This document shows, piece after piece, positions 1,596 through 27,747 of a stretch of DNA of 64,000 nt. Position 1 is the first letter of the stretch, and each line of letters begins with the position of its first letter. The notes beneath the pieces were generated by a model. The model ran no database searches. It worked only from the letters and a program-made list of their open reading frames with translations, and had not been told where the DNA came from. A program made the position numbers and the translations under genes. Origin of the DNA: Nannochloris sp. 'desiccata' (Eukaryota; Chlorophyta; Trebouxiophyceae; Chlorellales; Chlorellaceae); NCBI GenBank assembly GCA_019044685.2, contig JAGTXX020000007.1:434001-498000 (forward strand), read 5' to 3'.

Positions 1596-2816
1596 CTAAT
1601 AACGGTATTTAGTAGAATAATCTGCAAAGGGAGAGAAGAGAAAACAGTTTGTGTGCGTGAGATTGATTGATTGATTGATTAATTACGATAAAGGGAGAGA
1701 CGCGGGGCCGAGAATTTTCAGGTCAAGAAAATTCAAGATCTTTTCTCTGCTTACCTTTCGGCGACACCACGAGACCTCTTCCTTTCCTAGCACCTCTATA
1801 GACAGTCTCTACAATATCAATAAACTCTTGCTTATCATTCATAGCCCAGTTAATCTTGTTATTGTTACCAGTGCCAAGATCCACCATGATGTGCTGCAGA
1901 CGCAGAAAAAAAAAGGGAAAAAAAAAGAGGGAGAGAGGATTTTGTGAGTGGTACACGACGAGTACAAAATAGATAGTTCTATAGTATTGATGATTGATTC
2001 TGTCTAAATATGTGCTAGATTAAGTTGTTTCAAGGACCAAACAACGCTCAGCTGTGATAATTTGCAAAGAAGTCCTTTTGTTTTGGCAAAAAATTCAGCG
2101 GCACATAACTTTCTTCCTCTGTAAAACACAAGGGAAGAAAATGCCGCTGCCTCTCTACCAAAAACAGGTTCTAAGCAAACTAATAAGGCAGCAAAATGAG
2201 CGATACAGTAATCCTGGAAGAGTATATATATACTTCAATATTGCAAAGGGACTGTCCTGGGGACACGAGAAGAGTCCACAAGGTAATTTTTCTTTGCATC
2301 AAAAACTAAAAAACATGCCATCCCGTCTTTTGGGGCCGGCACAACACATTGCAAAGGAAAAAAACATGATACGGAGCGCGAATCGTCTCCTTTTCCCTAT
2401 ATCCCTTTGGAAATACGTAGATTAGTATTGCTTACCTTGTTTCTAAAGAAGAACATTACTGTACAAGGGTCATAGAGTTCATACATTGCATTAAAATCTG
2501 GCACTTCTGTGATGTCGACAAGGTAGGTGACTGCAAAATTCTTCATTTTATCAGTGGTGGAGGACAGAATTTCGTCCATTTGCATGCATGTCTCGTCCCA
2601 ATCATGGCCGAAACGGATGATTACTACGCGGGCCTCTTCCTGCAAAGGAAGCAAGAATAAAAAGATGACTTCCTGTTGACTGTTGGTGCCGGGGAAAGGG
2701 AATTTGGTCAAAGATTGTGAGCATGGCGAGGATGAAGACAGAAAAATATAGCTTACTGTGACAATAGCTTGATCAACTGCATATGCAGAATGAAGATGAG
2801 GTAGCAAATAACTCAT
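1596..2816 (-). CDS. DIB1: U5 snRNP 15 kDa protein DIB1/DIM1 (TXNL4A family)
   Basis: Small thioredoxin-fold component of the U4/U6.U5 tri-snRNP, needed for pre-mRNA splicing. Four exons join in frame: 2757-2816, 2436-2639, 1755-1893 and 1596-1621. The last exon is only 26 bases and encodes DYSTKYRY plus stop, the invariant family C-terminus. The joined product is 142 residues, the usual family length. Hallmark stretches are MSYLLPHLHS at the N-terminus, VVIIRFGHDWDETCMQMDE, NFAVTYLVDITEVPDFN, YDPCTVMFFFRNK and DLGTGNNNKINWAM. The start is fixed by the conserved N-terminus. Identity is essentially certain from the whole-length match in remembered family sequence. Confidence 0.96.
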
Positions 2817-3382
2817 TTCTAGGTTTTAATTGATTTTCTGATTCTGGAATTTAATGAAGTTTGTTTATCAACGTTCACGCTTTCAAGGATGAGAGTGCAG
2901 TATTGTGATAAGTGAAGTAAATATTTTATAATAATTTATTAAGTCCGGCCTGCTTGCGTTTTCTTATTTTCCAGTTTCAATTTTCTTTGCCGTAGTTGAC
3001 GCCGCCGGCGGGCTGCCGACAAGAAGTGCAGCCCTGCCGGTCGCTTAAACCTAATGGAAGAGGTGAGTTTCAGATGGAAAAGTAAAGAAAGTGGTAAGTA
3101 ATCCGACATTGTAGGAATATCACACCGCCAAAGGTCTGACTCTTTTAATACCTCATTGGTGAACCCGACATGCTCCTCCTGCTTTCCCTTTATTTATTAC
3201 TCTATTAATTCTATAAATTTTTTGTTTAAACAGTTTACAGAAAGGAAATTTTACGCCAATAACGTACTTTCGTACCAAGAATTATAAAATCAGAAGAAGG
3301 ATAATTCAATAAAACACTTTAATTTATTTCATCATCAAAATGAAAACCACCAAGCCGCTTTCTTTTTCCTCCCTTTCTACCT
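2817..3382. other. Intergenic, DIB1 upstream / transportin 3' flank
   Basis: Both flanking genes read leftwards, so this holds the DIB1 promoter and the transportin 3' end. A TTTATTATTAT-rich stretch near 2925-2940 could act in either; nothing else recognised. Confidence 0.5.
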
Positions 3383-24914: not shown

Positions 24915-24930
24915 GGTGTTTAATAACACC
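24915..24930 (-). promoter_or_regulatory. Histone 3' stem-loop, H3
   Basis: Reads GGTGTT-ATTA-AACACC on the H3 strand: a 6-bp stem and 4-base loop starting 48 bases after the stop. It is followed at a short fixed distance by TAGGAAA. The same 16 bases follow H4, H2A and H2B here. Confidence 0.85.
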
Positions 24931-24978: not shown

Positions 24979-25597
<619 letters not shown>

Positions 25598-25630: not shown

Positions 25631-25638
25631 CTCTGAAT
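25631..25638. repeat. Left target site duplication of hAT-like element
   Basis: CTCTGAAT, identical to the 8 bases that follow the right end of the element. Confidence 0.88.
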
Positions 25639-26384
25639 CAGTGCTTCGTTTAAGGATTTTGGCCTGGCATTTTTTCCCGGCATTTTTTCGTCCCTGGCCT
25701 GTTTTTCGGCATTCTGCCCCGGCATTTTTTCTGGATTCTGCCCCGGCATTTTTTCCATTTTTTTTCTTGACAGCATCAGGCACTATTTCTGAGCAGCGCA
25801 GATGCGCCTTATTGAAACATGGCTGGAATTTCTTTAGATTACATCTTTAAAAAAGCAAAAACAAGGAACTACAAATGCGCTCCACGACGCTTTTTCTTCG
25901 CCTTCCATACCTTTTTTCCTCTTCTGCAACAAGGAAGAAAATTCAGATTTGAATTTGGGTGGCTTATTTTAAGAAGTTAAGCATACAGATGACATCACAT
26001 ACCTTCAAAGCAGGTTCTTTGAACGGAGAAGAAGTCAAATCAATGGGTTGTTGCAAGTGCTGGACAGCCATGACTCGATCAAAGATCTGGGCAACCAAAG
26101 TTCGGACTAAGTCCTGATCATTGGTCTGCCGAGTGGTATCCATAGTGATAATGAGAGAATAACCTCTTACAAATGAACTTTTGTTAATTTAGTACTCTAA
26201 AACTGGCCTAAATCTCCGGCATTTTTTCAAAATTTTCGAAAAAAACGGCATTTTCCCCCGGCATTTCTGGCCCGCCGGAGCTCCGCTCCGGCACTTTTTG
26301 CACGGCATTTTTTCCTGTTCCTGCGCCTGAAAATGCCGGAAAATTGGCATTTTCCGGCATTTTCGGCATATATGCCGGCTAAAC
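25639..26384. repeat. Transposon unit 1
   Basis: First direct copy inside the element. Compared with unit 2 it lacks 6-7 bases near 25731 and differs at a few single positions; its right terminal repeat stops after GGCTAAAC. Confidence 0.85.
25834..26143 (-). CDS. Possible small protein within transposon unit 1
   Basis: A start codon opens 47 codons (begins MDTTRQTNDQDLVRTLVAQI, exon 26003-26143) ending at a good donor, GTATGT. A TTGCAG acceptor 79 bases on leads to a basic second exon (25834-25923). The joined product would be 76 residues. The intron is host-like in size and signals, which suggests a fragment captured from a host gene rather than a transposase. The exon 2 frame is uncertain: another frame gives the plausible basic end VWKAKKKRRGAHL. 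Function not recognised. Confidence 0.3.
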
Positions 26385-27161
26385 CAGTGCTTCGTTTAAG
26401 GATTTTGGCCTGGCATTTTTTCCCGGCATTTTTTCGTCCCTGGCCTGTTTTTCGGCATTCTGCCCCGGCATTTTTTCCATATTTGGATTCTGCCCCGGCA
26501 TTTTTTCCATTTTTTTTCTTGACAGCATCAGGCACTATTTCTGAGCAGCGCAGATGCGCCTTATTGAAACATGGCTGGAATTTCTTTAGATTACATCTTT
26601 AAAAAAGCAAAACAAGGAACTACAAATGCGCTCCACGACGCTTTTTCTTCGCCTTCCATACCTTTTTTCCTCTTCTGCAACAAGGAAGAAAATTCAGATT
26701 TGAATTTGGGTGGCTTATTTTAAGAAATTAAGCATACAGATGACATCACATACCTTCAAAGCAGGTTCTTTGAACGGAGAAGAAGTCAAATCAATGGGTT
26801 GTTGCAAGTGCTGGACAGCCATGACTCGATCAAAGATCTGGGCAACCAAAGTTCGGACTAAGTCCTGATCATTGGTCTGCCGAGTGGTATCCATAGTGAT
26901 AATGAGAGAATAACCTCTTACAAATGAACTTTTGTTAATTTAGTACTCTAAAACTGGCCTAAATCTCCGGCATTTTTTCAAAATTTTCGAAAAAAACGGC
27001 ATTTTCCCCCGGCATTTCTGGCCCGCCGGAGCTCCGCTCCGGCACTTTTTGCACGGCATTTTTTCCTGTTCCTGCGCCTGAAAATGCCGGAAAATTGGCA
27101 TTTTCCGGCATTTTCGGCATATATGCCGGCTAAACGAAGCACTGGGCTAAACGAAGCACTG
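26385..27161. repeat. Transposon unit 2
   Basis: Second direct copy, with a complete right end whose terminal 17 bases occur twice in tandem. Confidence 0.85.
26586..26894 (-). pseudogene. Second copy of the captured small gene
   Basis: Same two exons as in unit 1 (26754-26894 and 26586-26674). One A is missing in a homopolymer of the last exon, which changes the last residues and stop. First exon identical as far as I can compare. Confidence 0.3.
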
Positions 27162-27169
27162 CTCTGAAT
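27162..27169. repeat. Right target site duplication of hAT-like element
   Basis: CTCTGAAT, matching 25631-25638 exactly. Confidence 0.88.
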
Positions 27170-27174
27170 TTATA
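27167..27174 (-). promoter_or_regulatory. Displaced H3 TATA box
   Basis: TATAAATT on the H3 strand, overlapping the right target duplication. With the transposon removed it would lie about 55 bases upstream of the H3 ATG; now it is about 1.6 kb away. Confidence 0.65.
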
Positions 27175-27233: not shown

Positions 27234-27337
27234 GGCACACCTATCCGGGTTAGGCCCAATCCTGGCCTCTGAGGGGTGCTCCCAAAAAGTGATGCCCTGA
27301 GAGGCCAGGGATGGCCAGAACCCGGATAGGTGTGCCA
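27234..27337. promoter_or_regulatory. Histone promoter dyad, H3-H4
   Basis: Imperfect inverted repeat of two about 37-base arms. The left arm has CACACCTATCCGGG then TTAGGCCC; the right arm has GGCCAGGGATGGCCAG then CCCGGATAGGTGTGCC. The same arms recur between H2A and H2B but nowhere else seen in the window, so they are probably histone-specific control sites. A TATA-like CATATATTTG follows at about 27353, some 80 bases before the H4 ATG. Confidence 0.75.
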
Positions 27338-27429
27338 GCCCGCAAATTTCTCCATATATTTGGCTTTCCCCGCTTCATTTTGCTTTATCTCAACTTTGGT
27401 TTTCCTTTTAAAACCCCAAACTCAACTAA

Positions 27430-27747
<318 letters not shown>

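Follow-up and report, generated by a model that had tools for sequence, protein, structure and literature searches.

Two transposable elements of one hAT family, the second lying inside the first, split the divergent promoter shared by a histone H3 and a histone H4 gene in the green alga Nannochloris sp. 'desiccata'. The window that we analyzed is a stretch of 64,000 nucleotides on contig 7 (positions 434001 to 498000; genome total, 21.55 Mb), and the insertion occupies positions 25639-27161 of the window, within the H3-H4 spacer, where one element (A) holds another (B). At a probability of roughly 90%, we favor the reading that two successive insertions, first of A, a deletion derivative, and then of B, split the H3 side of the promoter. 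The nested structure, the family membership, the empty paralogous sites, the recent mobility of the family, and the loss of the TATA position are established; that the transposase of a full-length element moved both A and B is probable.

An element nested in a copy of its own family

The first-pass annotation had described a single hAT-like transposon with perfect 14-base ends and an 8-base duplication. Its boundaries held up, with CAGTGCTTCGTTTA at both ends of the 1,523-bp insertion in inverted orientation and CTCTGAAT on both sides, as did the hAT assignment, which is borne out by the duplications, the ends, domain PF05699, and a predicted fold. The single-element reading, however, had to be rejected, because the insertion contains four perfect 14-bp ends and two levels of duplication. 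Element B inserted into A 9 bp from the right end of A, in the same orientation. Subtracting B and one copy of its duplication (GGCTAAAC) leaves a 755-bp A with eight identical counterparts elsewhere in the genome, and B itself, in which the subterminal motif GGCATTTT occurs nine times, has seven. The sequence of A's end, GGCTAAACGAAGCACTG, meant that the 8-bp duplication restored a complete right end of 17 bp, and the insertion closes with tandem right ends, 27128-27144 being identical to 27145-27161.

A recently mobile family with one full-length member

The 14-mer end occurs 59 times in the genome and its reversed control not at all, so these matches are not due to chance. Besides the window, 27 regions with such sites were fetched, and 30 insertions were examined, a composite on contig 9 being taken as one by its outer ends. 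The first-pass annotation had named ends that fail to bound copies elsewhere as one of the findings that would overturn it; instead, 28 of the 30 insertions carry two perfect 14-bp terminal inverted repeats and an identical 8-bp duplication. Of the two exceptions, one has a single mismatch in one end and a duplication with 7 of 8 bases alike (locus L027), and the other has one end only, its second end not being found (L020).

The short copies (n = 27) are nearly identical and fall into six sequences of 755 to 761 bp, distinguished by a 6-bp insertion-deletion difference, three single-base insertion-deletion differences, and one substitution (a 9-base end was added to one copy for this comparison). 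The single long copy, on contig 10 (L021:1045-4289), measures 3,245 bp and has an uninterrupted transposase frame. One short copy (L034) aligns with bases 1-279 of the long element at 100% identity and with bases 2753-3245 at 99%; both ends of the full element are kept, as in the Ds-del type, and a single internal deletion of 2,484 bp has ATACC at both breakpoints. The short copies are internal-deletion derivatives of the 3,245-bp form. At two double loci (L016 and L013), both copies carry an extra A in one homopolymer, which is absent from both copies in the window. A 382-bp derivative on contig 9 (L017) is 94 to 95% alike, and related elements of 906 and 922 bp are found at L058 and L059.

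Indirect evidence that the family is recently mobile comes from an inverted duplication on contig 15 (L062 and L063; about 313-326 kb versus 932-944 kb), whose arms are 99.9% identical (6 mismatches in 7,247 aligned bases). One arm contains a short copy, and the other has the empty site with a single CTGCTAGT. The duplication extends further, as the flanks of the L058 and L059 elements are reverse complements of each other. It could be a real duplication or two haplotypes joined within a single contig; in both cases, one version has the element and the other does not. The insertions also avoid long reading frames: only 1 of 27 sites falls in a frame of at least 200 codons, compared to 12 of 20 control positions distributed across it as a whole genome (Fisher p = 2.5e-5). 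With the threshold set to 150 codons, the counts are 3 of 27 and 14 of 20, and the direction is the same at 100, 150, and 200 codons (for two sites at L013, one flank comprises no more than 171 bases). This avoidance shows an insertion preference, selection, or both.

The transposase of the long copy has three exons with GT-AG splice sites and 854 amino acids. Its exon borders were assigned manually; the NCBI model begins at the second methionine (830 amino acids), and residues 100-854 are 100% identical to NCBI protein Ndes2526B_g05133 from Nannochloris sp. 'desiccata'. The hAT C-terminal dimerisation domain PF05699 scores 23.2 bits against a cut-off of 21.4. Since a PDB sequence search returned nothing up to E 10, we compared predicted folds, and the transposase matched Hermes at 11 to 14% identity, with an RNase H-like catalytic fold and a hAT insertion domain. 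Retroviral integrases and the P element and mariner transposases aligned with much lower Z scores, which we read as reflecting the shared RNase H core. Residues D276, D347, C375-x2-H378, and E772 are invariant among four aligned relatives; in an alignment of eight sequences (four of them of 442 to 600 amino acids), D347, C375, and H378 remain invariant and D276 and E772 do not. We take D276, D347, and E772 to be the catalytic D, D, and E and C375-x2-H378 to be the CxxH motif. Together with the 8-bp duplications and short terminal inverted repeats, these features place the family among hAT elements, and the 3,245-bp element is apparently autonomous.

Exon 1 of the transposase is kept in every short copy. 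If spliced as the full gene is, B would encode a 74-amino-acid peptide opening with the first residues of the transposase, a possible inhibitor. Contig 14 carries two more hAT-like elements (L054:1301-4409 and L055:840-3279), both with terminal inverted repeats and 8-bp duplications that are perfect, and with open frames of 716 and 559 amino acids, respectively; L054 contains exact matches to all seven sampled 30-residue pieces of NCBI protein P0003, six of them in a common frame and the seventh in a different one.

A second composite on contig 9

The inner junction, GCCGGCTAAAC joined to CAGTGCTTCG, occurs at exactly two sites in the genome when up to two mismatches are allowed, namely, in the window and on contig 9. 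On contig 9, a 755-type A without its final 9 bp adjoins a 760-type B, and the outer duplication CCCCAATG, a perfect one of 8 bp, directly abuts the left end of A and the right end of B. The subtypes of A and B and their order are the same as in the window. The simplest reading is probably that a single nested insertion took place and that transposase later used A's left end and B's right end, giving rise to the contig-9 pair, which suggests that an A+B pair can move as a unit.

The same observation bears on the alternative that A and B were nested elsewhere and that the ready-made 1,523-bp unit jumped into the H3-H4 spacer by means of the left end of A together with the rebuilt right end on the outside. 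Finding the junction at two sites, with the same subtypes in the same order, indicates that composites can exist elsewhere. Successive insertions at the H3-H4 site, however, require no extra step, and the contig-9 composite, in which the outer 17 bp are absent, therefore did not give rise directly to the form in the window. We therefore regard this alternative as unlikely, although it is the best placed of those considered here.

A further possibility is that the contig-9 form arose by slippage, losing one of the tandem 17-bp right ends after a full composite had formed independently or moved there. The window form does end in a perfect tandem 17-mer, a substrate for slippage, and the contig-9 A and B each have one extra A in a homopolymer that neither A nor B has in the window. 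This extra base weighs against a single simple origin and may stem from slippage or sequencing error. Yet slippage adds a step, and the perfect CCCCAATG directly at A's left and B's right end is what a single transposition would give, so that we consider this origin rather improbable.

Loss of the H3 TATA position

The insertion lies 53 bases upstream of the H3 ATG (25583-25585, minus strand). Joining its flanks with one copy of the duplication gives a spacer of 319 bp, compared to 318, 320, and 320 bp in the other three H3-H4 pairs of the genome and 334 bp between H2A and H2B. The first-pass annotation had given the 53 bases, the 319-bp spacer, and the 334-bp spacer correctly. It had proposed looking for an empty site in other strains or species; here the comparison was made with paralogues in the same genome, and the three uninterrupted spacers match the joined window spacer nearly base for base, with CTCTGAAT present once and no element.

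In all three uninterrupted pairs, the TATA box TATAAATT stands 58 bp before the H3 ATG. Its place in the window had been identified in the first-pass annotation, whose distance of about 55 bases for the joined flanks we correct to 58 bp; likewise, its claim that the box has been detached while the H4 side stays intact is borne out, the box having been moved by about 1.5 kb to a present distance from the H3 ATG of about 1.6 kb. A TATA-like sequence with one mismatch also stands at -58 in two solo H3 genes (in the window, one-mismatch matches have a frequency of 0.0076 per base), so that a TATA or TATA-like site at this position is found in all five other close H3 genes, more distant H3 relatives lying outside this comparison. 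At the filled site, no TATAWAW with up to one mismatch was found between -20 and -200. A shared control module, whose elements CCCGGATAGGTGTGCCA, CACACCTATCCGGG, and GCCAGGGATGGCCAG recur in the H2A-H2B spacer, is now also about 1.6 kb from H3. H4, in contrast, retains both the module and its own TATA-like site TATATTTG, which has its counterpart in TATATTTA at -80 to -82 of H4 in the other three pairs.

The replacement upstream region brings in up to seven ATGs within 200 nucleotides of H3, five of which share one frame that runs past the H3 ATG, compared to none in the three uninterrupted pairs. According to the available portion of a study in Auxenochlorella, an added upstream AUG severely lowered translation of a downstream reporter, although initiation at weak starts is leaky (PMC11892635). 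The first-pass annotation had proposed that H3 now has either a new promoter from the element or a weak or dead one. A good replacement promoter is not what the sequence suggests, because a TATAWAW is missing between -20 and -200 and the upstream ATGs overrun the H3 start; the H3 copy in the window is thus probably weak or silent.

It is conceivable that this H3 gene is transcribed normally, driven either by a promoter in the element's end or by the shared module over 1.6 kb. The 53 bp before the ATG are intact except for one private base (25592, C in the window and T in the other three pairs), and control elements may work over a distance. We nevertheless find this doubtful, given the lack of any TATA match where the five close H3 genes have theirs at -58 and given that transcripts starting within the element would carry the overrunning upstream ATGs.

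That the insertion is an assembly artefact or a repeat collapse is very improbable: misassembly is possible for identical repeats at high copy number, but exact 8-bp duplications at both levels are not something that an assembler would invent, and the inner junction recurs in a second composite elsewhere in the genome.

Histone genes and features of the locus

The four H3-H4 pairs all lie on contig 7 and encode identical H4 proteins and H3 proteins identical over the 99 residues searched. The count of H3 copies suggested in the first-pass annotation further yields two genes at 99% identity (contig 4:237267 and contig 7:512051) and three more distant relatives. The two solo genes have no H4 within the fetched flanks, and their upstream sequences appear, by eye, to be unrelated. 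Two H3 relatives near contig starts (contig 1:14153 and contig 16:6352) have 48% identity and equal scores and are candidates for a centromeric H3 or a subtelomeric duplicate.

Palindromes of the form GGTGTT-4-AACACC stand near the 3' ends of all four core histone genes in the window (24915, 27840, 28230, and 29606). There are two per fetched locus in the other three H3-H4 pairs, one at L046, and none at L045. Presumably, they are of the histone mRNA 3' end type; an Rfam scan of the window gave nothing at gathering thresholds, these palindromes included. Light-harvesting genes are also present in the genome, and three light-harvesting matches with identical scores (contig 9:1373583 and contig 17:290002 and 370059) point to further duplicated segments.

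Table 1. Coordinates of the nested insertion and of the histone features around it (window positions)
Feature	Position	Strand	Remarks
Palindrome GGTGTT-4-AACACC	24915..24930	minus	Downstream of H3
Histone H3 gene	24979..25585	minus	Contains intron; stop codon placed by eye
Outer target-site duplication CTCTGAAT	25631..25638		Copy on H3 side
Element A, first 746 bp	25639..26384	plus	755-bp subtype; includes left 14-bp terminal inverted repeat
Inner target-site duplication GGCTAAAC, left copy	26377..26384		Also belongs to A
Element B, complete	26385..27144	plus	760-bp subtype; within A, 9 bp from A's right end
Inner target-site duplication GGCTAAAC, right copy	27145..27152		
Element A, final 9 bp	27153..27161	plus	GAAGCACTG
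Outer target-site duplication CTCTGAAT	27162..27169		Copy on H4 side
TATAAATT	27167..27174	minus	H3 TATA box in uninterrupted pairs; -58 in joined flanks
Shared control module	27234..27336		Inverted copies of GGCACACCTATCCGGGTT (27234-27251, 27319-27336)
TATATTTG	27355..27362	plus	TATA-like site of H4 at -81; untouched by insertion
Histone H4 gene	27436..27747	plus	

Discussion

Our preferred reading, two successive insertions, can be put as a sequence of steps. A nonautonomous copy, A, would first have landed in the divergent H3-H4 promoter, at the TATA box of its H3 side, and a second copy, B, would then have inserted 9 bp from the right end of A, leaving a 1,523-bp composite with two tandem right ends. 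The H3 side has thereby been deprived of its TATA box and separated from the shared module, and the H4 side has lost nothing. The H3 gene in the window is then probably poorly expressed, with the five other close H3 copies likely compensating.

Several observations weigh against this account. First, the three empty sites are paralogues within one genome and not alleles. Second, the long copy is not the exact parent of the short copies, because it has two to three substitutions in its last 482 bp (two differences from A and L034 and three from B). Third, some upstream ATGs are tolerated in green algae by leaky scanning, as far as the available part of the Auxenochlorella work goes (PMC11892635). 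Finally, the H3 protein part is identical to that of the other copies, as expected if the insertion is very recent but also if the gene is still useful.

If both halves of the picture are right, a dimer produced by self-insertion has become a new mobile unit with two alternative right ends, and it has switched off one arm of a histone promoter and left the other untouched; we propose this tentatively, at somewhat less than even odds. More broadly, this hAT system of a small green alga, active very recently and comprising one full element and 27 short copies, offers a possible native tool for insertional mutagenesis. The bidirectional histone promoter provides a natural experiment, with one split pair and three near-identical intact pairs in the same cell, and the two A+B composites allow the conversion of nested hAT copies into a larger mobile unit to be explored in nature.

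Among the literature matches listed, no title or abstract dealt with this H3-H4 insertion locus or this hAT family, and the closest likenesses are to systems in other organisms. With Hermes, from the house fly, the contig-10 transposase shares its predicted fold at the low identity given above. With the double Ds of maize, the composite shares an element inside its own copy; the two copies of a double Ds stand in inverted orientation, whereas B stands in direct orientation, 9 bp from the end of A, and by that definition A and B do not form a double Ds. In the accessible text of a study of maize Ds elements, nested Ds are rarer and gain chromosome-breaking properties, and that text reports no chromosome-breaking double Ds in maize B73 (PMC3260210). 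The same portion describes features of Ac/Ds and Ds-del elements that recur here, namely, 8-bp duplications, short terminal inverted repeats, a repeated subterminal motif, and internal-deletion derivatives (PMC3260210). The family differs from Ac/Ds in its 14-bp ends (CAGTGCTTCGTTTA), in a transposase without a PDB sequence match, and in having 27 copies of one deletion form. As in the Ac macrotransposons described in part of another report (PMC9910405), the termini of linked elements may be movable as a larger unit; here, in contrast, A and B have no DNA between them, and movement is suggested by one second site, on contig 9. Closer in taxonomy is Auxenochlorella UTEX 250-A, a diploid trebouxiophyte for which the available portion of one paper describes potentially active hAT families and many repeat-family insertions that differ between haplotypes, a likeness of description; it also lists Nannochloris among the trebouxiophyte algae with diploid genome assemblies (PMC12633428). 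The locus is thus a new, well-supported instance of processes already known in Ac/Ds, in which deletion derivatives, nested copies, and composite movement all occur.
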